64,000 nucleotides of DNA from Hyphomicrobiales bacterium (GTDB lineage: Bacteria > Pseudomonadota > Alphaproteobacteria > Rhizobiales > Rhizobiaceae): assembly GCA_900470285.1 (NCBI GenBank), contig UCAG01000004.1, forward strand, positions 62,001 through 126,000, written 5' to 3'. This document shows, piece by piece, positions 8,938 through 23,495 of this stretch; within the stretch, counting starts at the first letter, position 1, and each line of letters starts with the position of its first letter. Made by a program: the position numbers and the translations under genes. The notes beneath the pieces are model-generated. The model did no database searches, was not told where the DNA came from, and was given only the letters and a program-made list of their open reading frames with translations.

Positions 8938-10146
8938 TTACTGAATACTATCTTTTGCAGACAGAATTCTCTGGATTATTAAGTACAGACTGCCTCCCGC
9001 TATCGATATGGCGATGATTATCGCTAAGGTGATGTACGCACTTGTATTCTTCAGTGCGAAGGCCATTGCAAAGGGTGCTGCGGCAGATAGCACCAATCTC
9101 GCAGACATCAGTTTTCCCTGCATCGCACCATATCCGGCGCTTCCAAATAAATATAACGGGAGGGAGCCGCTTATAATGCTGAACAAACCATTGCCGAAAC
9201 CAAATAAGCAGGCGAATAATATTGCTGCAGGGATATAAGGTGCGCCGATCATCAATATCATAACGGATAAGGCAATGAACGAGGCTGCGATGACGGCTAA
9301 GTTCACGGGGGATAGGGTTTTTCCCGCCATCATATTGATCAGGCGGCTGGCGACTTGCGATGGCCCGAACACTGCGCCAATAAAGGCTGCTGATTTTGCC
9401 AAGCCCAATATGGCCAGTAGCGGGATCATATGGACAAGGATTGCAGAGGATATCAGTGCCTGTAGGGAAAATGCTGTTAGCAGTACCACGAAGCCTTTAC
9501 GTCTTGATGCCAAAGGCAGTGCGCCAGCTACAGAAGATATTTCTTTGCCGTCATTCTTGCGTTGGTCATGAGTTGTTTTGCTGGTGCGTGTCAGGGAATA
9601 ATGCAGCGGCAGGCATATCACCAGATGGAGACCGGCAAAGACCAGATAGATTTGCTGCCATGTCAGCCATTGCAGTAGTAATGATGTGAGTGGCCAGAAG
9701 ATGGTGGATGCAAAACCGGCTATCAATGTCAGATAGACAATGCTGCGCTGGGCAACCACTGGTTTGATCTGCACAAGCAGTGCAAAGGCGGCGCCGTATT
9801 GTACAAGATTGGCTGCAATCTCCACGATTGTAAGCGTTACAATGAAGGCCAGCGAATTGGGGGAGACTGCGCAAAGGATGAGAGAAAGCGCTGCAAAAGC
9901 AGAGCCGGCTGTCATAATTTGCGCGGCACCTAAGCGATCAATGAGTTTGCCCAGCCAAGGTGCCAGCACACCGCCTGCTAGCAGGGCTATGGACAATATC
10001 CCATAAACCCATTCCGTTGTTGCCTGATAGCCATCCGCAATGGACGGAGCCAGCACACTGAATGAATAGTAGAGTGTGCCGTAGCCGATGATTTGTGTGA
10101 GGCCAAGGCTCAGGATTGCATAAACAGGAAGGCGCTGATCGGTCAT
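8938..10146 (-). CDS. MFS transporter at the end of the ars operon (possibly ArsK-like)
   Basis: A 402-aa major facilitator with about 12 hydrophobic segments and the loop motif GKLIDRLGA after the second helix. It is the last gene of the arsR-acr3-arsC-arsH unit and overlaps arsH by ATGA, which strongly suggests arsenic, antimony or organoarsenical efflux. MFS proteins named ArsK and similar occur in alphaproteobacterial ars islands, but I cannot confirm orthology from sequence alone. Confidence 0.8.
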
Positions 10147-10847
10147 ATGGATTTCAACGAGATACGGGTTTCCAGTTTCTCTGCGGCTTCTTTTCGTTCA
10201 CTGTAACGGTCGGTCAGGTGGTCAGAAATGCCCCGTGTCAGGATGGTGAACTTGATGAGTTCTTCCATGACGTCGACAACTCTTTCATAAAATGAAGAGG
10301 GTTTCATGCGTCCGGCTTCATCAAACTCCTGCCATGCTTTGGCGACTGATGATTGGTTGGGGATTGTAATCATGCGCATCCATCGACCTAGCACACGCAT
10401 TTGGTTCAAAGCATTGAAAGACTGCGAGCCGCCAGAAACCTGCATCAGCGCCAGTGTGCGACCTTGCGTCGGGCGTACAGAGCCGCCCGCTAAAGGTATC
10501 CAGTCAATTTGTGATTTCATGACCGCACTCATAGCGCCGTGGCGTTCAGGACTGGTCCAGACTTGCCCTTCTGACCACACCATCGCTTCGCGTAACTCCT
10601 GAACCTTGCTGTGATCAGCAGTGCTGTCATCTGGCAATGGCAGGCCATCGGCATGATATATTCGTGTTTCTGCCCCCATAAATTCCAGCAGGCGCTGTGC
10701 TTCCAGTGTTAAAAAGCGGCTGTAAGAACGTTCTCTAAGCGACCCGTATAGAAGCAGGATACGAGGCTTATGTGTCAGTAAAGGTGCTTGGAGCTTATCG
10801 TAATCGGGCGCACGATACGCCTGCAGGTCAAGATTGGGCAGTGTCAC
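10143..10847 (-). CDS. arsH: ArsH, NADPH-dependent FMN reductase / organoarsenical oxidase
   Basis: Flavodoxin-fold protein of 234 aa. The FMN phosphate-binding loop is [16 protein letters not shown], and the sequence [20 protein letters not shown] is diagnostic of ArsH. In this family it oxidises trivalent organoarsenicals and shows NADPH:FMN reductase activity. It overlaps the MFS gene by 4 bases and starts 2 bases after arsC, so it is part of the polycistronic ars message. Confidence 0.93.
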
Positions 10848-10849
10848 GA

Positions 10850-11263
10850 TTATCTGTCCTTATGCTCATAGGTGATCTGCTCCCCGTCTTCTTTGGTAAA
10901 GTTGACAGCGGGATTTTCCAGAAGATCAAGAACACGTTCTGACGGGCGACAAAGGGCTGTGCCACGAGGTGTGGCCACAACCGGTCTGTTCATCAGAATC
11001 GGATGTTGCCCAATGAAATCCAGCAACTGATCGTCTGACCATTTCGTATTGGCTAAATCCAGTTCGGCAAAAGGCGTGCCTTTTTCCCGCAGCAAATCCC
11101 GCACGGAAATTTTCATGGCAGCAACAAGTTCTGATAATTGTTCTTTGGATAGCGGTGTTTGCAGATATTCAATGATGACAGGCTCTTCACCACTGGCGCG
11201 GATCATGGCGAGTGTGTTGCGTGAAGTTCCGCATTTAGGGTTGTGATAGATTGTAACGGACAT
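10850..11263 (-). CDS. arsC: Glutaredoxin-coupled arsenate reductase
   Basis: Reduces arsenate to arsenite for export by Acr3. It is a 137-aa ArsC of the plasmid R773/glutaredoxin-dependent type. [16 protein letters not shown] places the catalytic Cys at residue 11, and the Arg-containing [20 protein letters not shown] segment is intact. The start overlaps the acr3 stop region at 11263, indicating tight coupling. Confidence 0.94.
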
Positions 11264-12312
11264 CAGATATCGCCTGTTTTGGTTTGATTATTGCCTTGTT
11301 CGTACCAGCTTTTTGACCGGTTCACGATCCAGACAACGGAGAGCATAACGGGGACTTCCACCAAGACGCCGACAACTGTTGCAAGGGCGGCACCGGAACT
11401 GAAACCGAAAAGACTGATGGCTGCGGCTACAGCTAATTCGAAGAAGTTTGAAGCGCCGATCATTGCAGACGGGCCTGCAATACAATGCTGTTCGCCTGAC
11501 ATCCGGTTCAGGATATAGGCCAGACCGGAGTTGAAATAGACTTGGATCAGGATCGGTACAGCAAGCATGGCGATGATCAGTGGCTGGGCGATGATCTGTT
11601 CTCCCTGAAAACCAAAGAGCAAAACAAGTGTGGCAAGAAGTGCGACCAGCGATAATGGCTGTAATGCTTTCAGCAGTTTGTTTAACGACTGTCCATCATT
11701 CTCGGAGAGCAGGCTGCGCCGTATCAGTTGTGCGATGATGACGGGAAAAATGATGTATAAAACCACTGAGAAAATCAGTGTATTCCACGGCACTGTGATC
11801 GCAGATAATCCTAAAAGCAGGCCGACAATCGGGGCAAAAGCAATGACCATGATTGCATCATTCAGTGCCACCTGAGACAGGGTGAAATGGGGTTCGCCCT
11901 TAATCAGGTTTGACCAGACAAAGACCATTGCTGTGCATGGTGCTGCAGCCAGAATAATCAGGCCTGCTATGTAAGAGTCGATTTGCTCTTGCGGGAGATA
12001 TGGCCGGAACAGCCAGCCGATAAAAAGCCAGCCCAGCAAGGCCATAGAGAAGGGTTTAACCGCCCAGTTGACGAAGAGTGTCACGCTGATGCCGCGCCAA
12101 TGCTGGCCGACCTGACGCATCGCTGAGAAGTCGATTTTAAGCAGCATGGGAATGATCATCAGCCAGATCAGGATGGCAACAGGTATATTGACCTTAGCAA
12201 CCTCTGCTGCCCCGACCATATGAAAAGCAGCAGGGAACAGATGTCCCAGGGCAATTCCTATGATGATACATAGGGCAACCCAGAGTGTCAGATATCGTTC
12301 AAAGACAGACAT
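11263..12312 (-). CDS. acr3: Acr3-family arsenite efflux permease
   Basis: Arsenite antiporter of 349 aa with ten predicted membrane helices. It carries the Acr3-specific AAPCTAMVFVWSNLIKGEP, in which the conserved Cys of the fourth helix is present, and a GASNFFELAVAAAI helix. It sits between arsR (92 bases upstream) and arsC, and exports the arsenite made by ArsC. Confidence 0.94.
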   Translation of the reverse strand: MSVFERYLTLWVALCIIIGIALGHLFPAAFHMVGAAEVAKVNIPVAILIWLMIIPMLLKIDFSAMRQVGQHWRGISVTLFVNWAVKPFSMALLGWLFIGWLFRPYLPQEQIDSYIAGLIILAAAPCTAMVFVWSNLIKGEPHFTLSQVALNDAIMVIAFAPIVGLLLGLSAITVPWNTLIFSVVLYIIFPVIIAQLIRRSLLSENDGQSLNKLLKALQPLSLVALLATLVLLFGFQGEQIIAQPLIIAMLAVPILIQVYFNSGLAYILNRMSGEQHCIAGPSAMIGASNFFELAVAAAISLFGFSSGAALATVVGVLVEVPVMLSVVWIVNRSKSWYEQGNNQTKTGDI

Positions 12313-12404
12313 GACTTTTCCTTGACTGGTTTCATGTCATGGAGCGAAACCAGCCTTATTCAGATGTGATAATCAGAGAATTTCAGATTGTTATGCAGGA
12401 GGAT

Positions 12405-12767
12405 TCAGACTGGATGATCCGGCTGCTCCTTTGACGTACAGCAGGGCGTAAGGCTCCGGATAAGGGGAGTGCAAAGTTCTTCACTGCCGCCACAACAATC
12501 CTTGATCATGAAAAGCGTCAGTTCCCGAAATGTATCAAGATCAGCACGGTAGATGATTGACCGGCTCTGGCGTTCTCCTTTGATCAACCCCGCCCGTGAC
12601 AGGGTCGACAGATGGGCTGACATTGTATTCTGGGGCACATCCAATACACGTGCCAGTTCACCTGCCGGTAAACCGTTCGGTTCGTGTTTGACCAATAGCC
12701 GGAAAGTTTCCAGTCGTGTGGTCTGTGCTAAGGCTGCGAGTGCCGTGATTGCTGTTTCGTTTTCCAT
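12405..12767 (-). CDS. arsR: ArsR-family arsenite-responsive repressor
   Basis: Winged-helix repressor of 120 aa. The DNA-recognition helix region is DVPQNTMSAHLSTLSRAGLI. Candidate arsenite ligands are Cys91, Cys92 and Cys99 near the C-terminus (DCCGGSEELC), a layout close to the atypical C-terminal site of Acidithiobacillus-type ArsR rather than the helix-3 CVC site. A further Cys pair is at 109-110. It heads the operon. Confidence 0.92.
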   Translation of the reverse strand: MENETAITALAALAQTTRLETFRLLVKHEPNGLPAGELARVLDVPQNTMSAHLSTLSRAGLIKGERQSRSIIYRADLDTFRELTLFMIKDCCGGSEELCTPLIRSLTPCCTSKEQPDHPV

Positions 12768-12789: not shown

Positions 12790-13145
12790 AAATGATGTCA
12801 ATTGTTTTAATCAGTTAATTTGGTGAGGAAATGATGTGAAGGCTTGGATTGCTGATGCTTGCTGCGGCTCATTCTGGCGGGATTAACCGCTCGCCCATTC
12901 AGATCGTTGCAGAACTTGCAAAACAATCCTCCGCTTAAAGCTTTACCACTGCTGTATAAAGCCATTGTCTTTATACAGCAGTGGTAAAAGCATTTTTGTA
13001 GCGCTTGTATAAGAGAAGCAAGTACCAACATTGAGTTTGACGAGGTGCCTGACAATTCGGCCAAATATTCTGGCAGCATCAAGGGTGCGTTTATGTGTCG
13101 GGCCCGATAATATGATCGTATAGCGGCAGAGTTGGTGTTCCCGTT
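12790..13145. other. Gap between arsR and cueR with a 20-bp inverted repeat
   Basis: No gene is convincing here. It contains a perfect 20-bp inverted repeat and, on the plus strand from about 13020, a short stretch that reads like protein (TNIEFDEVPDNSAKYSG and on) but without a usable start. This may be a decayed gene. It is the seam between the arsenic and copper blocks. Confidence 0.4.
12942..12988. repeat. Perfect 20-bp inverted repeat (hairpin)
   Basis: Arms at 12942-12961 and 12969-12988 are exact reverse complements with a 7-base loop. A T-run follows only on the plus-strand side (ATTTTTG), so it is not an ideal terminator for cueR, which runs the other way. It could be a terminator, a remnant repeat or an element end. 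Confidence 0.75.
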
Positions 13146-13595
13146 TCATTGCAATCGGCGATCCACAGCGCCACGCCTCGGCCGGATAGAGAGATCTTCA
13201 TCTTCCGGATCTGTCTCGAGGCGTTTCAGGATCGGGCAGTGAGGCCGGTGGTCGCCCTGACAAGCATTGACCAGCATTGTCAGTGTGTTGGACATATCTT
13301 GCAGAGCTTTGATTTTAACTGCCAGCTCGTCAATATGGCCTTGTGCCATTTGTTTGACTTCTGCACTCTTGCGAGAATCATCCCGCCACAGACTGAGAAG
13401 GTCGCTGATTTCGGCAACGGAAAATCCCAGATCGCGTGCCCGCCGGATGAAGCGGAGCATATGGATATCGGTGTTGGAATAATCACGATAGCCGGCGGAT
13501 GTGCGGTCAGCGACCGGCACAAGCCCGATTTGCTCATAATAGCGGATCATTTTAGCTGATACGCCGGAAGCTTTTGCTGCCTGACCAATATTCAT
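13146..13595 (-). CDS. cueR: CueR, copper(I)-responsive MerR-family activator
   Basis: Activator that twists promoters with a 19-bp spacer when Cu(I) (or Ag/Au) binds. The MerR helix-turn-helix is at the N-terminus (KMIRYYEQIGLVP, ending near residue 27). Metal ligands fall at Cys112 and Cys120 (ACQGDHRPHC), the same numbering as E. coli CueR. Ser77 is present where divalent-metal sensors have Cys, which supports a monovalent ion. The protein is 149 aa with a longer, Arg-rich tail than the usual ~135 aa. It lies 60 bases downstream of copA on the same strand, so it is probably induced with its own target. Confidence 0.93.
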   Translation of the reverse strand: MNIGQAAKASGVSAKMIRYYEQIGLVPVADRTSAGYRDYSNTDIHMLRFIRRARDLGFSVAEISDLLSLWRDDSRKSAEVKQMAQGHIDELAVKIKALQDMSNTLTMLVNACQGDHRPHCPILKRLETDPEDEDLSIRPRRGAVDRRLQ

Positions 13596-13615
13596 TTCGT
13601 TTTCCTTTAAACATT

Positions 13616-13648
13616 TTGCAGCCGGTCAGAGGGAGAGACCGGCTGCAA
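13616..13648. repeat. Hairpin in the copA-cueR junction
   Basis: Stem TTGCAGCCGGTC / GACCGGCTGCAA with a 9-base loop between copA and cueR. On the transcribed minus strand it is followed by A-rich rather than T-rich sequence, so it is more likely a processing or partial-attenuation hairpin than a true terminator. Confidence 0.6.
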
Positions 13649-13655
13649 GGTTTTG

Positions 13656-16157
13656 TTAGTTGGCGATTTTGAATGAACGCAAGCGCAGGGCGTTACCCAG
13701 CACAAACACACTGGATAGTGCCATCGCACCGGCGGCAAAAACCGGAGACAGCAGAATGCCATAGGCCGGATAAAGCAAACCGGCTGCAACCGGAACCAGA
13801 GCGGCATTATAGATAAATGCCCAGAACAGGTTTTGCCGGATATTGCCGATGGTTGCTTTTGACAGGGCAATTGCATTCGGCACGCCCTGTAAGCTACCGG
13901 ACATCAGAACAACGTCTGCTGCTTCAATGGCGATATCTGTTCCTGTGCCGATGGCCAGACCCACATCCGCCTCGGCCAGTGCCGGCGCATCATTAATGCC
14001 ATCGCCAACGAATGCAGTCTGACCATATTGAGCCTTCAGGCGGCGGATAGCTTCAACTTTGCCGTCCGGCAGTACTTCAGCCACCACTTCATCAATGCCC
14101 AAACGCGCTGCAATGGCTTTGGCGGTGCGGGCATTGTCACCGGTAATCATTGCCACTTTGAGGCCGAGATTATGCATGGCTTTAATGGCCGCAGGTGTGG
14201 TTTCCTTGATCGGATCGGCAACAGCAATGATGGCTGCCAGCTTGCCGTCGATTGCCGCATAAAGCGGGGATTTACCTTCATTACCAAGACGTTCAGCAAC
14301 TTTGGCAAAAGCAGATACATCATGGCCGAGTTCGGTCATATAACGGTCTGCACCAATCTCAATGCGTTTGCCATCCACTACCGCTTTGACACCGAAACCT
14401 GTTACCGATTCAAAATCGGATACGGGTGACAATGAAAGCCCTTCATCTGCTGCCGCATCAACAATGGCACGGGCAATCGGATGTTCTGACTTGGCTTCGA
14501 CTGCTGCAACAAGTGCCAGCACATTGGCACGATCAAAGCCATTTGCCAGTTCCAGATCTGTCAGAGCAGGTTTACCTTCAGTCAGCGTGCCTGTTTTATC
14601 GAGAGCGACAACCTTGGCATCTTTGAGCAATTGCAGCGCTTCACCTTTGCGGAAAAGGACACCGAGTTCCGCACCGCGACCGGTGCCGACCATGATTGAG
14701 GTTGGTGTTGCCAGACCCATGGCACACGGGCAGGCGATAATCAGCACGGCAACAGCATTCACCAATGCGAAAGTCAGAGCCGGTGACGGACCAAGGATGA
14801 GCCATGCGGCAAATGTCAGAGCGGCCACTGCAAAGACAGCTGGTACAAACCACATGGTCACTTTGTCGACCAGTGCCTGAATTGGCAGTTTTGAACCTTG
14901 TGCTTCTTCAACCATACGGATGATCTGGGACAGGACAGTGTTGCCGCCGACGGCGGTTGCACGATAGGCAAAGGCCCCTTTCTGATTGACCGTGCCGCCG
15001 ACGATCTCACTGCCAACGGATTTTGCCACAGGGATCGGCTCGCCGGTGATCATGGATTCGTCGACATAGCTGGTACCTTCGATGACTTCGCCATCGACCG
15101 GCAGACGCTCACCCGGGCGGACTTCAACAATATCACCGGACACAACATCATCAATCGGCAGGTCGACGACCTGACCATTTCTGCGCACCCGTGCGGTTTT
15201 TGCCTGAAGACCGGCCAGACGCTTGATCGCCTCGGAAGTACGTCCTTTAGCGCGGGCTTCCAACAACCGGCCGAGCAGGATCAGCGTGACAATAACGGCT
15301 GCCGCTTCATAATAGACATTGATGGTACCGGCAGGCAGAAGGCCAGGCGCAAAGGTCGCAACCAGCGAATAGCCGTAAGCTGCAAGCGTGCCGACAGCCA
15401 CCAGCGAGTTCATATCCGGTGCAAAACGCATAAGCGCCGGAAGTCCTTTTTCATAAAACCGGATACCCGGAATGAAGAGCACCAAAGTCGTCAGAGCAAA
15501 CTGGATATACCAGTTCCACTGCATGCCGATGGTTGATTCAATCAGCCCGTGCACACCCGGAATAATATGCGATCCCATTTCCATCAGGAAAACAGGAAGC
15601 GTCAGAACCGCAGCTATGGTGAAATCGCGGGTCAGCTCACGCCGTTCGGTTTCTTTTCTCTCTGCCCGTGCGTCATCCTCATTGCTGCTCTGGCTACCTG
15701 AGCCTGCAATCAGCTTGGCCTCATAACCGGCATCAGCAATTGCGGCGATCAGGTCTGCGGTACTCGCCGTTCCGTGAATAGTTGCGCGTTCTGTTGCCAG
15801 ATTGACCACAGCATTTGTAACGCCCGAAATAGCTTTCAATGCGCGTTCAACACGGCCGACACAGGATGCGCAGGTCATGCCTTCAACGGAGAGCTCTACA
15901 GGGCCGGTCGCCGCAGGCATTTGCGCAGGTACAGAGTAGCCGGCCTTTTCGATGGCTTCGATTAATCTCACGCGAGGGACAGTTGAGTCGGTTGTGATAT
16001 TTGCGCGCTCTGTTGCCAGATTGACCGATACAGTTTCAACACCCGGCACTGCTTTGAGTGCGCGTTCAATACTGCCGACGCAGGATGCGCAGGTCATTCC
16101 TTCAACAGGTAAGGACACAGTTTCAGATAAGTCTTTTGCTCGAACGGGGGCATTCAT
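13656..16157 (-). CDS. copA: Cu(+)-exporting P1B-type ATPase CopA
   Basis: Cytoplasmic-membrane copper pump of 833 aa. Two N-terminal heavy-metal-associated domains each carry MTCASC. All P1B landmarks are present: the CPC transport site in [11 protein letters not shown], phosphorylation motif DKTGT, SEHP motif and [10 protein letters not shown] hinge. The open frame continues to 16202, but the start at 16157 (MNAPVRAKD) is chosen because AAGGAGG sits just upstream and because the longer version runs back towards the promoter. Transcription starts at a CueR-type promoter 41 bases before the start. Confidence 0.96.
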
Positions 16158-16197
16158 AGCCGCCTCCTTTTCTTTCCGAAAATTTAAATTCGTTATG

Positions 16198-16228
16198 AGC
16201 ATGAGGCTTCCAACAATTGGAAGGTCAA
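16198..16228 (-). promoter_or_regulatory. CueR-type promoter of copA
   Basis: On the minus strand: TTGACC (-35), a 19-bp spacer holding the dyad CTTCCAATTGTTGGAAG, then CATGCT (-10). The long spacer with an embedded CTTCC/GGAAG dyad is the signature of MerR/CueR-activated promoters such as E. coli copA. Confidence 0.88.
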
Positions 16229-16254
16229 GAGCAAAAATTTATTTGTTTTCACTC

Positions 16255-16285
16255 TTGACCTTTCCATGGTTGGAAACCCCATCTT
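16255..16285 (+). promoter_or_regulatory. CueR-type promoter of copZ
   Basis: TTGACC, a 19-bp spacer containing TTTCC-ATGGT-TGGAAA, then CATCTT, 33 bases before the copZ start. It is divergent from the copA promoter with 26 bases between the two -35 boxes. Confidence 0.88.
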
Positions 16286-16318
16286 GATGTCATGAGAGCC
16301 AAATAAAGGAGAAGTCTC

Positions 16319-16513
16319 ATGGAACTGAAAATCGAAAATATGACCTGCGGCGGTTGCGCTAAATCCGTGACCAAAGCCATTCAATCGGTGGATGCCAATG
16401 CGAAGATTGAAACCGATCCGGCAACACGGCTGGTAAGAATTGAAACTGCTGTCAGTTCTGATGCACTGCAGAAAGTTCTCGAAGAGGCAGGTTATCCCGC
16501 AGCTGTAAACTAA
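16319..16513 (+). CDS. copZ: CopZ-like copper chaperone
   Basis: A 64-aa single heavy-metal-associated domain with the metal site MTCGGC (residues 9-14). It probably ferries cytosolic Cu(I) to CopA. An AAAGGAGA ribosome site precedes it. It is transcribed divergently from copA from its own CueR-type promoter and followed after 14 bases by a Met/His-rich mini-protein. Confidence 0.93.
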   Translation: MELKIENMTCGGCAKSVTKAIQSVDANAKIETDPATRLVRIETAVSSDALQKVLEEAGYPAAVN

Positions 16514-16527
16514 ACAGGGGAATGATT

Positions 16528-16710
16528 ATGAACAAGCTGAGCCTCATTCTTATTGCAGGCGCACTTGCTGTGAGTGTCGGGCTGGTATTTGTGCAAAACC
16601 GGCTGGAAATGAAAGGCGGAATGCAAGGGCATTCCATGCAGGGCATGACAATGCCGGATCATGCAATGCGGACAGAAGAGGCGTCTTCTGAGTCGACACC
16701 GGTGCCGTGA
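16528..16710 (+). CDS. Small Met/His-rich exported or membrane-anchored protein, likely copper-binding
   Basis: 60 aa: an N-terminal hydrophobic helix (about residues 4-22) followed by a tail with Met28, 32, 37, 40, 42, 47 and His35, 45, then an acidic/Pro end. Met/His clusters like this bind Cu(I)/Ag(I) in CusF, CopC and similar proteins, so a periplasmic copper-binding peptide is inferred. The start at 16528 is preferred to 16522 because AGGGG (16516-16520) is 7 bases from it but only 1 base from the earlier ATG. It follows copZ on the same message. I recognise no named family. Confidence 0.75.
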   Translation: MNKLSLILIAGALAVSVGLVFVQNRLEMKGGMQGHSMQGMTMPDHAMRTEEASSESTPVP

Positions 16711-16758
16711 CAATTAGCTGGCAATGTGTTGAGGATTCGCTATATCCGCATCATGAAG

Positions 16759-16790
16759 AACCCGCTGCGATCATTTCGCAGCGGGTTTTA
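16759..16790. terminator. Terminator between the copZ unit and the ferredoxin-reductase unit
   Basis: 12-bp perfect stem AACCCGCTGCGA / TCGCAGCGGGTT, 5-base loop, T-rich end. It lies between two convergent units and probably serves both. Confidence 0.88.
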
Positions 16791-16797
16791 CTGTATT

Positions 16798-17826
16798 TTA
16801 TTCGGCTACAGCCGCGATTGGTAATGTTTCCGGCGTGAAGAATATATCAGCATGCATATCTTCTTTTTGTAATCCGCGGGCAAAAGTAACAGCCATTGCT
16901 GCATCCACCATTAATGGTGGCCCCGCGACATAAGCTTTCCAGCCGCTGAAATCAGAAATGTCCTCTGCAACCGCGCGGGTCACAAAACCGCTTCGGTAAA
17001 GTTCAGAGCGTGCCTCTGATAAGACCGGTGTGAAAGACAGGTTCGGATGCTTTTCTGTCAGACCACGAAAATGCTCCGTGAGATAAAGATCACGTTCGGA
17101 GCGTGCGCCGAAATAGACATGAATCCTTTGTTTCATACCATGGACAAGAGCGGTTTCTACAATGGATTTGATCGGGGCAAGCCCCGAGCCACCGGCAATA
17201 CACAGGATCGGGCCACTATGATACTGCCGCAGAAAGGAAGCCCCTAAAGCGACCTCCATCTTTATGGGATCACCGGTTTTCAATGTCTGATGCACATAGC
17301 CGGATGTAGTGCCTGCGGGAACATGGCGGATGTGAAATTCTAAGTGTCTCTCACCGGAGCGGTTTGCCATGGAGTAACTGCGGGAAGGTACGCTGTTAAA
17401 GCTGAGTTCAGCATATTGACCTGCTTCAAAATTCAGTGGCAAACCATTTTCAGGTGTGACCTGCACCAGCTTGATATCATGGGTGAGATCTTCAATACGG
17501 GTAACAATGCCTTTTACCCGCTGCGCAGGTTGCAGTTCTTCATGCTCTGTGCCCAGCCACGCCACAGCTGCATCTGTCAGCGGTACAGAACGGCATGCAA
17601 GGATCAGGCCATCTGCTTTTTCCTCATCAGACAGGGCAAAACGGGAATGCTGAAGCATTTCCACTTCCCCTTCAATAAGGCGGGATTTGCAGGAGCCGCA
17701 ACGGCCGGATTTGCAACCGTGAGGATAGGAAATACCTGATGTCAAAGCCGCTTCCAGCAGAGTTTGCCCGTCAGCACAGGTAATACTGCTGCGGGCCTGA
17801 CGGATATCAATGCGTTTTGAGGTCAT
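16798..17826 (-). CDS. 2Fe-2S ferredoxin / FAD / NAD(P)H reductase
   Basis: A 342-aa three-domain electron-transfer protein. The N-terminal plant-type ferredoxin has ligands Cys38, 43, 46 and 78. The FAD domain carries RSYSMANRS (149-157), and the pyridine-nucleotide domain carries AGGSGLAPIK (211-220). The order resembles reductase components of ring hydroxylases and CDP-6-deoxyglucoseen reductase, but no oxygenase is nearby. It overlaps the glutaredoxin gene by ATGA and lies under a CueR-type promoter, so a role in copper-stress redox chemistry is inferred. The partner and substrate are unknown. Confidence 0.85.
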   Translation of the reverse strand: MTSKRIDIRQARSSITCADGQTLLEAALTSGISYPHGCKSGRCGSCKSRLIEGEVEMLQHSRFALSDEEKADGLILACRSVPLTDAAVAWLGTEHEELQPAQRVKGIVTRIEDLTHDIKLVQVTPENGLPLNFEAGQYAELSFNSVPSRSYSMANRSGERHLEFHIRHVPAGTTSGYVHQTLKTGDPIKMEVALGASFLRQYHSGPILCIAGGSGLAPIKSIVETALVHGMKQRIHVYFGARSERDLYLTEHFRGLTEKHPNLSFTPVLSEARSELYRSGFVTRAVAEDISDFSGWKAYVAGPPLMVDAAMAVTFARGLQKEDMHADIFFTPETLPIAAVAE

Positions 17827-18110
17827 GGTTGTGCCTCTGATGTTTTCAGCTGCGCATCTGACAAACCTAGTGCCTTCATCAAACCGGGTTTCTGGCTCAA
17901 AAATGTGCCGTAAAAAACCTGATCGCCGACAATGCTGATCGGTGCAATACGCACACCTGTACGTGTTTTGGCTTCTTCTGCGATCAGCGGATCGGTGAGA
18001 TCGCGTTCCTCATAGGCAATCTTTTGCTGGGCGAGCCAACGCTTGAGTGCATGGCAATCGGGGCAGGTCGGAGTTGTATAGATGAGGAGTTGCGGTGTAC
18101 CGGCATTCAT
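17823..18110 (-). CDS. Glutaredoxin-like protein (CPDC)
   Basis: A 95-aa thioredoxin-fold protein with redox motif CPDC at residues 16-19, close to NrdH/glutaredoxin, and a cis-proline at about 57 (RIAPISIVG). The open frame reaches 18191, but that start would sit inside the promoter -10 region. MNAGTP at 18110 is chosen, with AAAGG upstream and a proper strand-1 start. It is translationally coupled (ATGA) to the ferredoxin/FAD reductase, which may reduce it directly (inference). Confidence 0.85.
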   Translation of the reverse strand: MNAGTPQLLIYTTPTCPDCHALKRWLAQQKIAYEERDLTDPLIAEEAKTRTGVRIAPISIVGDQVFYGTFLSQKPGLMKALGLSDAQLKTSEAQP

Positions 18111-18189
18111 CTTTTTGCCTTTCTCTGAATGGGACAAGGTTCCTCTGAAAACAGCGACTGAATTGTGCTGACAGAACAACATTGCAGGC

Positions 18190-18220
18190 ACGATGCGGCT
18201 TCCAGCGCTTGTAAGGTCAA
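18190..18220 (-). promoter_or_regulatory. CueR-type promoter of the glutaredoxin-reductase unit
   Basis: On the minus strand: TTGACC, a 19-bp spacer with the weaker dyad CTTACAAGCGCTGGAAG, then CATCGT, 79 bases before the glutaredoxin start. It has the same architecture as the copA and copZ promoters. Confidence 0.78.
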
Positions 18221-18313
18221 GAGCTGTTTCCGGCCGAAAAACGAAACGTTACAAAGCGGGGAGGGATGCTTATTGGAGCAAGACAGAAATTTTTTGTTTT
18301 GCTTTTAAGGCTC

Positions 18314-18344
18314 TTGACCTTTCCATCGTTGGAAACACCACCTT
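18314..18344 (+). promoter_or_regulatory. CueR-type promoter of the RND pump
   Basis: TTGACC, a 19-bp spacer TTTCC-ATCGT-TGGAAA plus CAC, then CACCTT, 54 bases before the pump operon. It is nearly identical to the copZ promoter and divergent from the glutaredoxin promoter. Confidence 0.84.
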
Positions 18345-18398
18345 CATCAAAATTGAGCGCGGTATCTCCTGAAGATGCCTTTATGAAGGTAAACTGAA

Positions 18399-19652
18399 AT
18401 GAAAAAGAAAATCACGGCACTGTACTTGACCGGTGTCGTTATTATCGGCGGGGCATTATTTTATCCCGATAAAGCAGAGCTGTATGTCAGCCGTTTCCTC
18501 ACATTTCTCTCGTCGGCCGCTATTCCTTATGCTGCCGCGCAATCGGGAGAAATGCCCGCACCGCAGGTGCCTGTAGCAGAAGTCGTAACGCGTAAGGTTG
18601 CTCTGTCTACAGAATTTACCGGCCATCTGGAGGCAAGCAAGCTGGTGGAGCTGCGTCCGCGTGTTGGCGGTGCAATTGAGACAGTGAGTGTCCCGGAGGG
18701 AGAGCTGGTTCAATCGGGGCAAGCTCTGTTTGAGATTGATGCCAGACCGTTTCAGGTCGTTCTTGATGCTGCCAAGGCGGAGTTGCAGCAGGCGGAAGTT
18801 TTGCTGGAGCATGCTGAAACCAATTTCAAGCGCACGGCCAGTCTTGCGCCAAACGGCACAGTCTCCCGAAAGACTTTTGACGATGCTCAGGCGGCACGCA
18901 GTCAGCGTCAGGCTCAGCTTGCTATCGCTAAAGCGGCGGTTGCCGCTGCCGAGCTTGATTTGTCCTTTACCCGCGTGACTGCTCCTGTTGACGGGCGCGT
19001 TGACCGCGTTTTGGTGCATGAAGGCAATCTGGTAACAGGGGGAAATGCTGGCAATGCGACATTGCTTACGACTATCGTCAGCACCGATCCGCTCTATGTA
19101 TATTTCGACATTGATGAGGCGACTTATCTCAGCTTTGTCGCGCGTGCCTGGGCTCAAGAACATGGCAAAGCTAACGCCGCATTGCCGGTGCAGATCGCAC
19201 TGATGACGGATAAGGAGTTCACCTATAACGGGGTTCTGGATTTTATCAGTAATCGTATCGACAGAAGTACCGGCACCATTCGTGCCCGTGCTGTCGTTGA
19301 AAATCCTGAAGGCATATTGGCCCCCGGACTTTTTGCACGCATAAAACTGGCGACCTCAGAGCCGCTGCAAACAGTTCTGATTGATGATCAGGCCATCGGT
19401 ACAGATCAGGGGCGTCGTTATGTGCTGGTTTTAGGTGAGGGCAATAAAGCCGAATTTCGTCCGGTGGAAATCGGGACGATAGTCGATGGTTTGCGCGTTA
19501 TTTCTTCCGGTCTGCAAGTGGGTGAAAAGATCATTGTGAAGGGGCTTGTTGGCCCCGGCATGCAGGTCACGCCACAGATGATTTCAATGGTACCGGAGCG
19601 GGTTTCTGACAGCGCTCAGGCAGAGGCTTCTCAACAGGAGGCGCGTCGATGA
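18399..19652 (+). CDS. RND efflux periplasmic adaptor (membrane fusion protein)
   Basis: A 417-aa AcrA/MexE-like adaptor. It has an N-terminal membrane segment, lipoyl half-motifs flanking a helical hairpin (FEIDARPFQVVLDAAKAELQ onward, about residues 110-190), LSFTRVTAPVDGRVDRV, and a beta-barrel domain around GVLDFISNRIDRSTGTI. It links the inner-membrane pump to an outer-membrane channel, which is not encoded in this window. It overlaps the pump gene by ATGA. No Met/His metal-binding motif like that of CusB is evident. Confidence 0.92.
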   Translation: MKKKITALYLTGVVIIGGALFYPDKAELYVSRFLTFLSSAAIPYAAAQSGEMPAPQVPVAEVVTRKVALSTEFTGHLEASKLVELRPRVGGAIETVSVPEGELVQSGQALFEIDARPFQVVLDAAKAELQQAEVLLEHAETNFKRTASLAPNGTVSRKTFDDAQAARSQRQAQLAIAKAAVAAAELDLSFTRVTAPVDGRVDRVLVHEGNLVTGGNAGNATLLTTIVSTDPLYVYFDIDEATYLSFVARAWAQEHGKANAALPVQIALMTDKEFTYNGVLDFISNRIDRSTGTIRARAVVENPEGILAPGLFARIKLATSEPLQTVLIDDQAIGTDQGRRYVLVLGEGNKAEFRPVEIGTIVDGLRVISSGLQVGEKIIVKGLVGPGMQVTPQMISMVPERVSDSAQAEASQQEARR

Positions 19653-22600
19653 ATATCCCGCGCTTTTTTGTCGACCGCCCGATTTTTGCGGTTGTGCTTT
19701 CTGTCCTGATGCTGATTGCAGGCGGACTGACCCTGCTGAAACTGCCGCTGAGTGAATATCCTCAGGTCACACCACCGACTGTACAGGTCACAGCCAGCTA
19801 TCCGGGAGCCAATCCGGAAGTGATTGCTGAAACCGTCGCTGCGCCATTGGAACAGGCGATTAACGGCGTCGAGAATATGCTCTATATGGGTTCGCAGGCT
19901 GCAACCGACGGGCGTATGACGCTGACAATTGCGTTCCAGCAGGGCACTGATCCTGATATGGCGCAAATTCAGGTGCAAAACCGCGTTGCCCGTGTGCTGC
20001 CACGCCTGCCGCAGGAAGTGCAGCGTATCGGTGTTGTGACGCAAAAAACCTCGCCGGATATTCTGATGGTGGTGCATCTGGTGTCACCGGATGGGCGTTA
20101 TGACCCGCTCTACTTATCCAATTATGCGCTTTTGCAGGTGCGTGATCAGCTGGCGCGCGTGCCGGGGGTTGGTGATGTGCTGGTCTGGGGCGCCGGCGAA
20201 TATTCGATGCGGGTCTGGCTTGACCCGAATAAAGTTGCGGCACGCGGTCTGACCGCGTCCGATGTGATTGCATCAATTCAGGAACAGAATGTGCAGGTTG
20301 CTGCCGGTTCGGTTGGTCAGCAACCGGATGCTTCCTCAGCATTTCAGGTGACAGTCAACACGCTGGGCAGATTGTCTAATGAGGAGCAGTTCGGCGATAT
20401 TGTTGTTAAAACCGGTTCTGAGGGACAGGTAACCCGCCTGCGGGATGTTGCCCGTATCGAACTTGGTGCGGATGCTTATGCGCTGCGCAGTCTGTTGGAC
20501 GGTAAACCTGCGCTGGCAATTCAGATCATCCAAAGTCCGGGTGCTAACGCGCTGGATGTGTCCGCAGCTGTTCGCGATACGATGAGCGAACTGGAAAAGG
20601 ATTTTCCGGAGGGTATAGAATCCCGCATCGCCTATGATCCGACTGTTTTCGTTAAAGCCTCGCTGGAAGCTGTGGTCGTGACATTGCTTGAAGCCATCGT
20701 ACTGGTGGTTCTTGTGGTCGTGCTGTTTCTGCAGACATGGCGCGCTTCGATTATTCCGCTTGTTGCCGTGCCGGTGTCACTGGTCGGTACATTCGCCCTG
20801 ATGTATCTGTTCGGCTTCTCGCTAAATACATTGTCGCTGTTCGGGCTGGTGCTTTCTATCGGTATTGTGGTCGATGACGCGATCGTGGTGGTGGAAAATG
20901 CAGAGCGCCATATCGCCTTGGGAGAAACGCCCAAAGAAGCGGCGCGCAAAGCTATGGACGAAGTGACAGGGCCGATTATCGCCATTACCTCGGTGCTGTC
21001 GGCAGTGTTTATTCCTTCTGCCTTCCTCACCGGATTACAGGGGGAATTCTACCGGCAATTCGCCCTGACAATTGCCATTTCAACCATTCTGTCCGCAATC
21101 AATTCTTTGACATTGTCTCCGGCACTTGCAGGTGTTTTGCTGAAACCGCATCACGGCGAAGTAAAACGCGACAGGCTTACCATTATCATTGACCGGCTGT
21201 TTGGCTGGTTTTTCCGGCGCTTCAATCTGTTCTTTGATCGTGCTTCCAATGCCTATGTCTGGTCAGTACGCCGTGCCATTCGCCTGAGCGGTTTTGTCCT
21301 GCTGATTTATGCTGCTTTGGTCGGTACGACATGGCTTGGTTTTCAGACCGTACCGAACGGATTTGTACCGGCACAAGACAAATATTATCTGGTCGGCATT
21401 GCGCAACTGCCTACAGGCGCTTCGCTTGATCGCACGGAGGCTATGGTCAAAACTATGTCCGAAATCGCTCTGGCCGAACCGGGCGTAGAAAGTGTTGTTG
21501 CCTTTCCGGGGCTTTCGGTAAATGGCATGGTCAATATTCCGAATGCTGCCGTGATGTTTACGATGCTCAAACCTTTTGACGAACGGAAAGATCCGTCATT
21601 ATCTGCTTTTGCGATTGCAGGCCGTTTGATGGGTAAATTCAGTCAGATACCCGATGGTTTCGCGGGTATTTTCCCGCCGCCGCCTGTGCCGGGACTCGGT
21701 TCTACCGGTGGTTTTAAAATTCAGCTTGAAGATCGTGCCGGACTTGGTTTTGAGGCATTAGCAAAAACGCAGAGTGAGATCATGGCCAAGGCGATGCAAA
21801 CACCGGAACTGGCAGGTATGCTGGCCAGTTTCCAGGTGAATGCGCCGCAAGTGCAGGTGGATATCGACCGCGTCAAAGCTAAAACACAAGGCGTGCCGCT
21901 CAATACAATATTTGAAACATTGCAGGTCTATCTCGGCTCACTCTATGCCAATGATTTCAACCGTTTTGGCCGTACCTATCGTGTGATGGTGCAGGCCGAT
22001 GCTCCATTCCGTATGCAGCCGCAGGATATCGGACGCCTGAAGGTGCGTAATGCCGCCGGAGATATGATCCCGCTATCAGCTCTGCTGACAGTGAAGGATA
22101 GTTCGGGACCGGATCGCATCATGCATTATAACGGTTTCCCTTCGGCGGATATCAGCGGCAGTCCTGCACCCGGCTATTCTTTCGGGCAAGCAACCGCCGC
22201 GATAGAGCGCATAGCTCTGGAAACAATGCCGGCCGGTATGGCTTTTGAATGGACGGAACTTGCCTATCAGGAAAAACAGGCAGGCAATGCAGCCATGTAT
22301 GTTTTCCCGCTGTCTGTATTGCTCGCTTTTCTCATTCTTGCGGCACAATATAACAGCTGGTCGTTGCCTTTTTCGGTTCTGCTGATTGCGCCAATGGCAT
22401 TGTTGTCAGCAATTGCCGGTGTCTGGCTCACAGGCGGCGACAATAATATTTTCACACAGATCGGCTTCGTGGTTCTGGTGGGGCTTGCCGCTAAAAACGC
22501 TATTCTGATTGTGGAATTTGCCAGAGCCAAAGAGGATGAAGGTGTTGATCCGCTCAATGCGGTTCTGGAAGCTGCAAGACTGCGTCTGCGGCCGATCCTG

Positions 22601-22861
22601 ATGACTTCTCTGGCTTTCATTGCCGGTGTTGTTCCTCTGATGCTGGCGACAGGAGCGGGAGCAGAGATGCGTCATGTGATGGGGATTGCTGTTTTTGCCG
22701 GTATGCTCGGCGTTACATTATTCGGTCTTGTACTGACGCCGGTATTTTACGTGCTGGTGAGACGTATGGCGATTGCCCGTGAAAAACCGAAAGCCGGAGT
22801 AACCGATGCCTTCACAAATAAAACGGGCGTGCATGCTAATGAGAAAAACGGTATTTTCTGA
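19649..22861 (+). CDS. RND-family HAE1-type efflux permease
   Basis: A 1070-aa AcrB/MexF-like trimeric pump. The proton-relay residues of drug-type pumps are intact: Asp409-Asp410 in helix 4 (VVDDAIVVVEN) and Lys949 in helix 10 (AAKNAIL). The N-terminal FFVDRPIFA is typical of the class. It lacks the helix-4 pattern of CusA/CzcA-type metal pumps, so substrates are expected to be organic compounds rather than copper ions, although its promoter is metal-type. A comparable arrangement is GolS-controlled GesABC in Salmonella (established knowledge). The reading frame stays open for 79 codons after the stop. Confidence 0.94.
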   Translation: MNIPRFFVDRPIFAVVLSVLMLIAGGLTLLKLPLSEYPQVTPPTVQVTASYPGANPEVIAETVAAPLEQAINGVENMLYMGSQAATDGRMTLTIAFQQGTDPDMAQIQVQNRVARVLPRLPQEVQRIGVVTQKTSPDILMVVHLVSPDGRYDPLYLSNYALLQVRDQLARVPGVGDVLVWGAGEYSMRVWLDPNKVAARGLTASDVIASIQEQNVQVAAGSVGQQPDASSAFQVTVNTLGRLSNEEQFGDIVVKTGSEGQVTRLRDVARIELGADAYALRSLLDGKPALAIQIIQSPGANALDVSAAVRDTMSELEKDFPEGIESRIAYDPTVFVKASLEAVVVTLLEAIVLVVLVVVLFLQTWRASIIPLVAVPVSLVGTFALMYLFGFSLNTLSLFGLVLSIGIVVDDAIVVVENAERHIALGETPKEAARKAMDEVTGPIIAITSVLSAVFIPSAFLTGLQGEFYRQFALTIAISTILSAINSLTLSPALAGVLLKPHHGEVKRDRLTIIIDRLFGWFFRRFNLFFDRASNAYVWSVRRAIRLSGFVLLIYAALVGTTWLGFQTVPNGFVPAQDKYYLVGIAQLPTGASLDRTEAMVKTMSEIALAEPGVESVVAFPGLSVNGMVNIPNAAVMFTMLKPFDERKDPSLSAFAIAGRLMGKFSQIPDGFAGIFPPPPVPGLGSTGGFKIQLEDRAGLGFEALAKTQSEIMAKAMQTPELAGMLASFQVNAPQVQVDIDRVKAKTQGVPLNTIFETLQVYLGSLYANDFNRFGRTYRVMVQADAPFRMQPQDIGRLKVRNAAGDMIPLSALLTVKDSSGPDRIMHYNGFPSADISGSPAPGYSFGQATAAIERIALETMPAGMAFEWTELAYQEKQAGNAAMYVFPLSVLLAFLILAAQYNSWSLPFSVLLIAPMALLSAIAGVWLTGGDNNIFTQIGFVVLVGLAAKNAILIVEFARAKEDEGVDPLNAVLEAARLRLRPILMTSLAFIAGVVPLMLATGAGAEMRHVMGIAVFAGMLGVTLFGLVLTPVFYVLVRRMAIAREKPKAGVTDAFTNKTGVHANEKNGIF

Positions 22862-23405
22862 TTACAGGCAAATCTGCATTTCAGTGTAAATTTAAGCGGT
22901 GATAATAGAAGATGTGTTGAAAGCACTGCCTATGCGCCGACCAGCCCCCGTTCCGAGTGGCTGGTCGGGGGCGAGGCACGAGGGAGGGAAACTATAGTCT
23001 CTTCTACTTTAGCTACCTCACTTACATGGGACTTTGAGGCGCTTCCGGTTTACACCCTGACTATGAATGAAATCGAGAACATGGGTATGAAGTTCGTATG
23101 ATGTGCTGTGCCGGTAGCGTATCAAGTGTGATTAAACACATATCTCGGATGCACCGGATTTGTTACATGTCTTCAATCATTTGATCGAAATGGTTTATAT
23201 GGCTGTCTCTGACTTACAGAGTACAGTTCAGGCGAAGCACTTTAGCAAGTTTGTGAGTAGCATAGTATCAGCTATCAGAAGCCGGCGGTTTGTTTATGAT
23301 TTGCGGCACCATAAAAAGCATTTCAAAACCAGTTTTGCCGGGAAGGGGAGTATATATGCTATGACCTTGAAATATGTAGTAAGTCAATGTCTTGAAAATG
23401 ATAAC
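22862..23405. other. Gene-free region between the RND pump and tRNA-Ser
   Basis: No well-supported gene. It contains a 10-bp stem (22937-22946 with 22959-22968, CCGACCAGCC type) without a T-run, probably the end of the RND message. The pump's own frame stays open to the TGA at 23099-23101. A 115-codon frame from 23160 runs through the tRNA and is not credible. Confidence 0.5.
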
Positions 23406-23495
23406 TGGCGGAGAGAGCGGGATTCGAACCCGCGATACGGTTCCCCGTATACACACTTTCCAGGCGTGCGCCTTCAACCACTCGGCCACCTCTCC
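23406..23495 (-). tRNA. tRNA-Ser(GGA)
   Basis: Full cloverleaf on the minus strand: acceptor GGAGAGG..CTCTCC, class II long variable arm (TACGGGGAACCGTA), GGTTCGAATCC T-loop, anticodon GGA within CTGGAAA, and encoded CCA at 23406-23408. Confidence 0.97.

Follow-up and report, generated by a model that had tools for sequence, protein, structure and literature searches.

The element described here is a metal-resistance island at positions 13146-22861 of a 64,000-nucleotide stretch of Hyphomicrobiales bacterium DNA (the window; assembly GCA_900470285.1, contig UCAG01000004.1, 62,001 to 126,000 of the forward strand); positions given without a contig or locus refer to this window. The island combines a copper ATPase gene with its regulator gene (copA-cueR), a copper chaperone operon (copZ), a glutaredoxin/2Fe-2S reductase pair (the redox pair), and a resistance-nodulation-division (RND) pump. 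We consider it likely that the Salmonella gol/ges island has here an alphaproteobacterial relative, in which a CueR-family activator acts on four promoters. The genes, the promoter boxes and their conservation, the gene layouts and the link of the reductase clade to copper were observed directly. Binding and activation by the regulator and the identity of the sensed metals are proposed on that basis, and the function of the redox pair is the most conjectural part. Papers given by PMC number are cited from the portions consulted, and statements about them apply to those portions.

The four promoter boxes lie at 16198-16228 ((-) strand, TTGACC-19 bp-CATGCT, before copA-cueR), 16255-16285 ((+), TTGACC-19 bp-CATCTT, before copZ), 18190-18220 ((-), TTGACC-19 bp-CATCGT, before the redox pair, containing TTACAAGCGCTGGAAGCCGCA), and 18314-18344 ((+), TTGACC-19 bp-CACCTT, before the RND operon). 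Their coordinates, strands and 19-bp spacers are exactly those given in the original prediction, which was made from the letters of the window. Each of the four also carries a dyad between the -35 and -10 elements, as is typical of CueR promoters. When the dyad form was searched as the 27-nt pattern TTGACCTTNCNANNNNTGGAANNNNCA (up to three mismatches, with the reversed pattern as control), the window gave these four matches only, against 0.20 expected, and none of 100 shuffles reached four. The statement that the motif occurs nowhere else in the window thus holds for the dyad form, but not for the looser TTGACC-N17-21-CANNNT, which matched 8 times against 2.44 expected; the other four matches (at 11910, 19000, 52578 and 52581) all lack the dyad, and uniqueness of the loose motif was rejected on their account. 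A scan of the 3.81-Mb genome, which the prediction had called for, ranked the island sites best: only these four matched at 0 or 1 mismatch, two further boxes were found at 2 mismatches (C10:39023 and C12:87017; C denotes contigs) and eight at 3, and the reversed pattern gave 6 matches in all at up to 3 mismatches. As had been predicted, each of the four operons starts at one box, with 45 bp (copA), 37 bp (copZ), 87 bp (glutaredoxin gene) or 58 bp (adaptor gene) between pattern end and gene start. In the redox box the left half is weaker, with TTAC in place of TTCC. A chance origin of the boxes was rejected from the window count, the genome scan and the placement of boxes in relatives, and the prediction that all four are CueR-type promoters is supported by these data.

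To place the boxes in relatives, genome contigs were searched with a profile built from a three-sequence reductase alignment, which recovered 41 loci (numbered with L). Relatives of copA (at least 55% identity) were present in 33 of these, of cueR (at least 45%) in 32, of the glutaredoxin gene (at least 45%) in 31, of the adaptor gene (at least 50%) in 23, and of the permease gene (at least 70%) in 24. A box with up to 2 mismatches was located within 800 bp 5' of the reductase gene in 33 of the 41 loci. In five of the eight loci lacking one (L056, L058 and L061-L063), copA precedes the reductase gene and itself has a box in front of it, and the other three (L059, L064 and L065) have no relatives of the island copper genes; "copper-linked" here means likeness to the window's own proteins together with boxes, as distinct from a general copper-gene search. 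After dereplication, 28 loci (including the window, L001, L025, L026 and L027) held 85 boxes, 83 of them just upstream of copA, copZ, the glutaredoxin/reductase genes or the adaptor gene, and the reversed control pattern gave no match in these 28 loci. Near copies (reductase more than 97% identical), the short loci L081 and L082, the unlinked L059, L064 and L065, and L067-L070, in which the reductase match is too short, were excluded from this count; the box and gene tally of the 41 loci covers all. The boxes occur 5' of the corresponding genes mostly in Alphaproteobacteria, and among other Proteobacteria as well.

Between loci, the boxes are 79-88% identical, compared with 34-44% in their 40-bp flanks. 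(For this comparison and that of the spacer centres below, one Pseudochrobactrum locus was kept, and L001, L031-L034, L025, L054, L062, L063 and L066 were dropped.) In alignments this amounts to a strong phylogenetic footprint at all four promoters, the redox and RND promoters included. That the redox and pump boxes are relics of descent and not working CueR sites is very improbable: the weaker left half of the redox box would fit such decay, but both classes remain 80-88% identical against 34-41% in their 40-bp flanks, and a box precedes the reductase gene even where a glutaredoxin match is lacking (L054, L055 and L066). The spacer centres were class-specific, with a within-class distance of 5.69 versus 7.04 after label shuffling (0 of 2000 shuffles as low); this may reflect descent, and we do not take it as proof of tuning. 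Eight plasmid loci with 46-69% identity were fetched as a check. Copper-gene or pump relatives were present in all eight, as was a box when the pattern was relaxed slightly and up to 1 mismatch allowed. This check set represents eight of 36 plasmid records, with L137 and L138 99.6% identical to each other and L143 from the same species as L054 and L066.

The copA and copZ promoters are divergent, with their -35 elements separated by an AT-rich gap of 26 bp (16229-16254). The same length was found in 13 of 19 distinct gaps, five of the 13 being from Pseudochrobactrum-like loci, and all 19 fell between 23 and 28 bp. Mean identity among the 26-bp gaps was 57%, with a lowest value of 19%. By arithmetic, the two dyad centres are 53 bp apart, or about five helical turns. 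The gap between the redox and RND promoters ranged from 93 to 746 bp in 14 loci having both boxes within 800 bp; one further locus, Achromobacter L057, has a gap of 27 bp between two weak boxes (3 and 2 mismatches). The copA/copZ promoter spacing is thus near-fixed, and the redox/RND spacing far more variable.

The regulator gene cueR (13146-13595, (-)) encodes a 149-residue MerR activator of the CueR/GolS family, which passed the curated CueR model TIGR02044 (170.3 bits; cut-off 147.4). Ser77, Cys112 and Cys120 are present as had been predicted, as is A14-K15-M16; the residues mapped to these three positions correlate with CueR-type sites (PMC5045206), the mapping assuming that the numbering there omits the first Met. 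The narrower equivalog model PRK10227 scored 100 bits against a cut-off of 244, and by that model the island protein is not an E. coli-type CueR orthologue. Its metal loop reads C-QGDHRPH-C. The loop C-x-GDHRPH-C-PI was found in all 17 distinct regulators at least 73% identical to the window's, and the GDHRPH loop was not found in E. coli CueR, in GolS, in the second CueR-type protein of the genome (CueR2, see below), or in seven more distant copper-linked regulators. Across residues 113-118, island QGDHRP and GolS AGDALP share G114, D115 and P118 only. These residues matter for GolS selectivity (PMC6337107), and a CueR loop placed in GolS broadens its response to copper (PMC7911910). Because loop residues govern selectivity in GolS, we expect the island protein to have a different Cu/Ag/Au balance.

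The original prediction had placed copper export, thiol redox and drug-type efflux in one response under a single CueR encoded inside the island. The genome contains nine PF13411 matches, and six proteins besides the island CueR were scanned against NCBIfam. Of these, CueR2 (encoded on C10) alone passed the CueR cut-off (163.1 versus 147.4 bits), one passed the SoxR model, and L016 gave no match; the two remaining MerR proteins (L021 and L024, outside the NCBIfam scan) have no C-x7-C pair. CueR2 is 55.6% identical to the island CueR, with A14-K15-M16 and Ser77/Cys112/Cys120 in common. A self-contained single-CueR system was rejected on the basis of this second protein. The part of the claim that appears to stand is a CueR-controlled response, given CueR-type promoters, a CueR encoded inside the island and the footprint at all four sites; the part that does not is which CueR exerts the control. 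The two 2-mismatch boxes outside the island were also inspected. The C12:87017 box (L029, about 5020-5050) lies directly 5' of a second copper ATPase gene outside the window (788 aa; TIGR01511, 617 bits versus 397), and the predicted regulon probably extends to this gene. The C10:39023 box (L028, about 11020-11320) precedes a 50-residue open reading frame (ORF) in which a 36-residue alignment to CopA 794-829 shows 78% identity (E 2e-12, 801-base stretch searched); this ORF seems to be what is left of an ATPase gene otherwise deleted downstream of its promoter. About 7 kb separate the same box from the CueR2 gene.

It is possible, though not what we would expect, that control is shared in a two-sensor network, where CueR2 serves part of the island promoters and the island CueR serves the C12 ATPase. 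The CueR model score and key residues of CueR2 and the box before the second ATPase would suit such an arrangement. It is countered by the finding that islands in relatives mostly include a cueR of their own (32 of the 41 loci, as above) and that all four 0-mismatch boxes of the genome are inside the island.

What the island shares with Salmonella gol/ges is a sensor-ATPase operon and an RND operon that are transcribed divergently, each preceded by a box. In the Salmonella record, golS-golT is divergent from mdsABC, boxes with 3 mismatches precede golT and mdsA, and a box with 2 mismatches lies beside golS, before a small HMA (heavy-metal-associated domain) gene. The permease is 79.1% identical to MdsB (1045 columns), the ATPase 75.3% to GolT, CueR 58.4% to GolS, and the adaptor 52.2% to MdsA. 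The pump consists of a GesA/MdsA-like periplasmic adaptor (18399-19652, (+); 417 aa; TIGR01730, 268 bits versus 94.9) and a permease (19649-22861, (+); 1070 aa) near GesB/MdsB, the permease type of the gesABC-golTSB island that has been termed the gold operon (PMC9626534). The two islands also differ. Here the copZ operon is paired with copA and the redox operon with the pump, both lying between; the island has no gesC of its own; and its sensor loop is QGDHRPH where GolS has AGDALPD.

The permease passed the HAE1 (hydrophobe/amphiphile efflux) multidrug RND model NF000282 (1485.7 bits; cut-off 1250), and a CusA/CzcA-type heavy-metal efflux RND was ruled out by TIGR00914 (361.7 bits; cut-off 701.45). 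These scores would suit a pump that answers drugs and not metal, CueR control being mere co-induction, and a review argues in this way against copper export by MexPQ-OpmE (PMC7922089). We regard a drug-only pump as possible but not probable, given that the permease is 79.1% identical to GesB, encoded in the Salmonella gold operon, and is linked to copper genes among the 41 loci.

The redox pair consists of a glutaredoxin-like protein with a CPDC motif (17823-18107, (-); 94 aa; PF00462, 47.4 bits), whose gene overlaps the start of the reductase gene, and a reductase binding 2Fe-2S, flavin adenine dinucleotide (FAD) and NAD(P)H (16798-17826, (-); 342 aa) with a BenC-like architecture (Fer2, FAD_binding_6, NAD_binding_1). 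The domain order 2Fe-2S, FAD, NAD(P)H is that of BenC/phenol-hydroxylase-type reductases (PDB 5ogx and 1krh), and 5ogx is the closest sequence match among solved structures. Unlike those enzymes, the island reductase falls in a separate, copper-linked clade and is encoded without an oxygenase, none being detected among the island proteins by profile search. The BenC equivalog model scored 197 bits against a cut-off of 430, and a BenC-type oxygenase reductase was rejected from this score and the missing partner.

In a tree of 57 reductases (69 sequences before near copies were removed), labelled from gene neighbourhoods, one clade with 100/100 support held 27 copper-linked rows and one unlinked row, and the other 29 unlinked rows fell outside it. 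Three of the linked labels (L054, L055 and L066) were assigned through the pump and boxes, since neither copA nor cueR lies within 9 kb in these loci. All 27 copper-linked rows keep the four 2Fe-2S cysteines and the R-x-Y-S and GG-x-G-L-x-P motifs, and CPDC is present in all 23 distinct glutaredoxin tblastn matches of at least 45% identity. The redox genes stand under their own box, as in the window, or in the order copA-glutaredoxin-reductase-cueR (L056 and L058); copA-reductase-cueR is found without a glutaredoxin match in L061-L063, L139-L141 and L144, and the reductase gene lies beside the pump, again without a glutaredoxin match, in L054, L055, L066 and L143. That a CueR-type box is common to such varied layouts supports a metal-handling role for the redox pair. 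In a survey of the class, reductase matches at E 1e-60 occurred in 46 of 385 genomes, and of the 30 loci inspected among the 46 matches only three, the window's own (L080), L081 and L082, had copper genes or boxes; a general tie of the wider reductase family to copper was rejected.

Three roles were weighed for the pair. We tentatively favor a combined thiol-and-metal role, in which the pair would spend NAD(P)H keeping metal and protein thiols reduced. BenC-type reductases pass single electrons, and such transfer would fit the one-electron step from Cu(II) to Cu(I). The pair might accordingly act mainly as a metal reductase, moving electrons from NAD(P)H through FAD and 2Fe-2S to Cu(II) or Au(III) and yielding the monovalent ion on which sensor, carrier and ATPase act, with the glutaredoxin in a delivering or protecting part. 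The cofactor motifs kept in all copper-linked rows would be consistent with this scheme, as would reductases lacking a glutaredoxin match, whether under their own box (L054, L055 and L066) or between copA and cueR (the seven loci with that order named above). Glutathione, however, is thought to keep cytosolic copper as Cu(I) anyway, and the CPDC glutaredoxin partner indicates thiols as much as metal, which leaves a mainly metal-reducing role unlikely. A third role, reduction of protein disulfides or electron supply to iron-sulfur cluster repair under high copper, is suggested by the glutaredoxin domain with CPDC and by the CueR-controlled copZ-prxgrx-gorB operon of B. pertussis, in which PrxGrx-GorB acts on peroxide and glutathione (PMC7794356). 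The island proteins gave no match to a peroxiredoxin domain or to a glutathione reductase, and we judge this role rather unlikely. A bolder version, which we hold to be doubtful, is a dedicated metal-reductase module in which a CueR-switched 2Fe-2S/FAD reductase and CPDC glutaredoxin were recruited by alphaproteobacteria from oxygenase-type electron-transfer chains; inside the cell and driven by NAD(P)H, it would complement copper efflux by setting Cu or Au valence for sensing and export, with the GDHRPH loop as a separate selectivity class.

In the mechanism that we propose for the island as a whole, the CueR-family activator would sit on the four 19-bp-spacer promoters and keep them shut. 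Binding of Cu(I), Ag(I) or Au(I) between Cys112 and Cys120 would distort the DNA and open them. The opened promoters would raise CopA and CueR itself, the carrier CopZ and a small Met/His-rich protein, the glutaredoxin-like protein and the reductase, and the GesAB-type RND pump, which would depend on an outer-membrane channel from another locus. Cytosolic Cu(I) would be removed by CopA and CopZ, the pump would probably export metal complexes or damage products, and the redox pair would most likely use NAD(P)H to hold the reduced thiol and metal state needed by CopZ, CopA and CueR.

Several observations weigh against this reading. The boxes are orthologous promoters and part of their likeness comes from descent, although the diverged flanks argue against descent alone as its cause. 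Because the island loop differs from the CueR and GolS loops alike, the sensed metals cannot be read from sequence; and with CueR2 in the genome, either CueR may act at a given box. The island has no gesC: the PF02321 (outer-membrane efflux protein) matches of the genome lie on C3, C5, C14 and C19 and none on the island contig, C8, and the three such proteins above cut-off are all encoded on other contigs than the island's. Bootstrap values of the reductase tree are not fully settled, and the unlinked row inside the copper-linked clade, Alcaligenes L059, has no relatives of the island genes within 9 kb; it sits on a long branch, and its placement is unsure. The plasmid check left out 15 records below 40% identity, 7 of them named ndoR (naphthalene dioxygenase reductase). 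In the class survey, 27 of the 30 loci had neither island copper-gene relatives nor a box within 1.5 kb, the span covered on each side for L083-L109.

The original prediction had also held that this is not a textbook CueR regulon, which applies in part. In Pseudomonas aeruginosa, CueR controls mexPQ-opmE (PMC7922089, PMC12833586), and one CueR there governs copA1, copZ1, copZ2, mexPQ-opmE and PA3515-PA3519; by locus tag, however, the targets are scattered (PA3515-PA3523, PA3574.1, PA3920) with the regulator elsewhere (PA4778), and the consulted portions of the two papers do not name a 2Fe-2S reductase/glutaredoxin pair. In B. pertussis, the CueR-dependent copZ-prxgrx-gorB operon similarly unites copper binding with thiol redox (PMC7794356). 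That operon encodes a peroxiredoxin-glutaredoxin fusion and a glutathione reductase, without a pump, whereas the island encodes a CPDC glutaredoxin and a 2Fe-2S/FAD reductase; the domains detected in the pair were Grx, Fer2, FAD_binding_6 and NAD_binding_1, together with a thioredoxin-like match below cut-off, and not those of the Bordetella type. A third comparison is actP-hmrR, in which an ATPase gene is followed by a CueR-type regulator gene. Permina et al. (2006) described almost identical signals with 19-bp spacers for CueR and HmrR orthologues (PMC1526738), a near-identical signal to that of the island. The actP-hmrR arrangement is described there without reductase or pump, whereas several relatives found here carry the reductase gene between ATPase and regulator, and in the consulted main text of that paper (supplements aside) the words 'ferredoxin', 'glutaredoxin' and 'RND' are absent. 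RND pumps (Salmonella, Pseudomonas) and thiol redox (Bordetella) thus have precedents under this control, and what remains of the claim is the 2Fe-2S reductase/CPDC glutaredoxin pair, which appears to be the undescribed part of the island. We found no description of such a pair in a CueR regulon, in a search that covered few subscription papers and is weak evidence of absence, nor, in the literature searched, of the copper-linked reductase clade, the C-x-GDHRPHC loop or the near-fixed copA/copZ spacing.

The comparison places the Salmonella gold operon in a wider alphaproteobacterial frame, which often includes a 2Fe-2S reductase pair linked to copper in a way that is apparent only through comparison. 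Accounts of bacterial copper defence usually name efflux, sequestration and oxidation; should the reductase prove to set metal valence or to repair thiols, an electron-supply arm would be added to these. A drug-type pump tied to metal exposure on mobile DNA also bears on co-selection. The three sensor loops (CueR, GolS and GDHRPH) and the near-fixed copA/copZ geometry are directly testable. Together with the redox arm, the island's sensor loop and this promoter geometry merit laboratory work.

The remaining genes of the island are those of copper export and binding. The copA gene (13656-16157, (-)) encodes an 833-residue P1B-1 Cu(I)/Ag(I)-type ATPase (TIGR01511, 594.7 bits; cut-off 397) with two CASC HMA domains, CPC (476), DKTGT, YN (783) and MALSS (812). 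Along with the model score and CPC, it thus has YN and MxxSS, motifs which we take to be markers of P1B-1 copper ATPases. Its start was set at 16157 because a start at 16202, which gives a longer ORF, would fall within the promoter, and an 833-residue protein is annotated in the Pseudochrobactrum algeriensis record; the start at 16202 was ruled out. The copZ gene (16319-16513, (+)) encodes an HMA metallochaperone of 64 residues (PF00403, 58.6 bits; cut-off 24.8). It is followed by a Met/His-rich ORF of 60 residues with an N-terminal hydrophobic stretch (16528-16710, (+)), which is not mentioned in the original prediction, is annotated in P. algeriensis, and gave no Pfam or NCBIfam match. This ORF resembles the N-terminus of a DUF305-like protein encoded 3' of copZ in Sinorhizobium sp. 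RAC02 (56% over the matched part), and it looks like a shortened front part of a DUF305-type protein. In RAC02, copZ is followed by the gene for this 130-residue protein (DUF305-like by eye) and a multicopper-oxidase-like ORF, and in Mesorhizobium sp. INR15 by annotated DUF305 and multicopper oxidase genes. Neither gene follows copZ in the window, and the sole PF07732 multicopper oxidase of the genome lies outside the island, at C10:125543.

The island is both mobile and accessory. A block 93.4% identical to the window's is present on P. algeriensis plasmid pPB17_1, where its neighbours are pyk on one side and solute-binding/ABC transporter genes on the other; in the window, they are arsenic-type genes on one side and a tRNA-Ser on the other. 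The shared block, 13143-22783, has identical end points in P. algeriensis (L001) and P. saccharolyticum (L031), and in P. kiredjianiae (L034) the shared stretch is longer and includes flank (12841-22997). The genome is most similar to Pseudochrobactrum, and all four boxes were found in five of seven genomes of the genus, one of the five having 1 mismatch in one box, and this limited presence is why we call the island accessory. The other two, G390 (a complete genome) and G386 (61% complete), had no boxes. Outside the genus, 9 of 34 relatives had one or two boxes (up to 1 mismatch) and none had four. By record titles, ATPase-sensor-RND islands of similar make occur in many alphaproteobacterial genera. 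Reductases more than 97% identical were found across eight loci labelled Paracoccus, Pseudogemmobacter, Gemmobacter, Maricaulis metagenome-assembled genome (MAG) and Erythrobacter MAG, which suggests recent horizontal transfer or, for the MAGs, mis-binned contigs.

Near-identical reductases (>97%) under different genus names were seen in two sets of loci (L037-L042, L047 and L049; L043, L045, L046 and L071), which for both sets points to recent transfer between lineages or to mis-binning of MAG contigs. A record titled Bacillus subtilis SK6B4 (L032) contains a Pseudochrobactrum-like island with 88-100% protein identity and is probably a mislabelled or contaminated assembly. In the window, the arsenic-type genes adjoining the island (8938-12767) encode, by profile searches, an SBF-family transporter and an ArsR-family regulator and, by eye, an ArsH-like flavoprotein and a major facilitator superfamily transporter. 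The tRNA-Ser (GGA) gene at 23406-23495, about 0.5 kb beyond the right end of the island, is a possible landing site. An additional P-type ATPase, 34-35% identical to CopA, is encoded 5' of the redox pair in L036, L037, L039-L043 (for example, L043:5297-7480), L045-L047, L049, L052, L053 and L068-L071, and several of these islands also encode a distantly related MerR-type protein (35-37%) that lacks Cys112.

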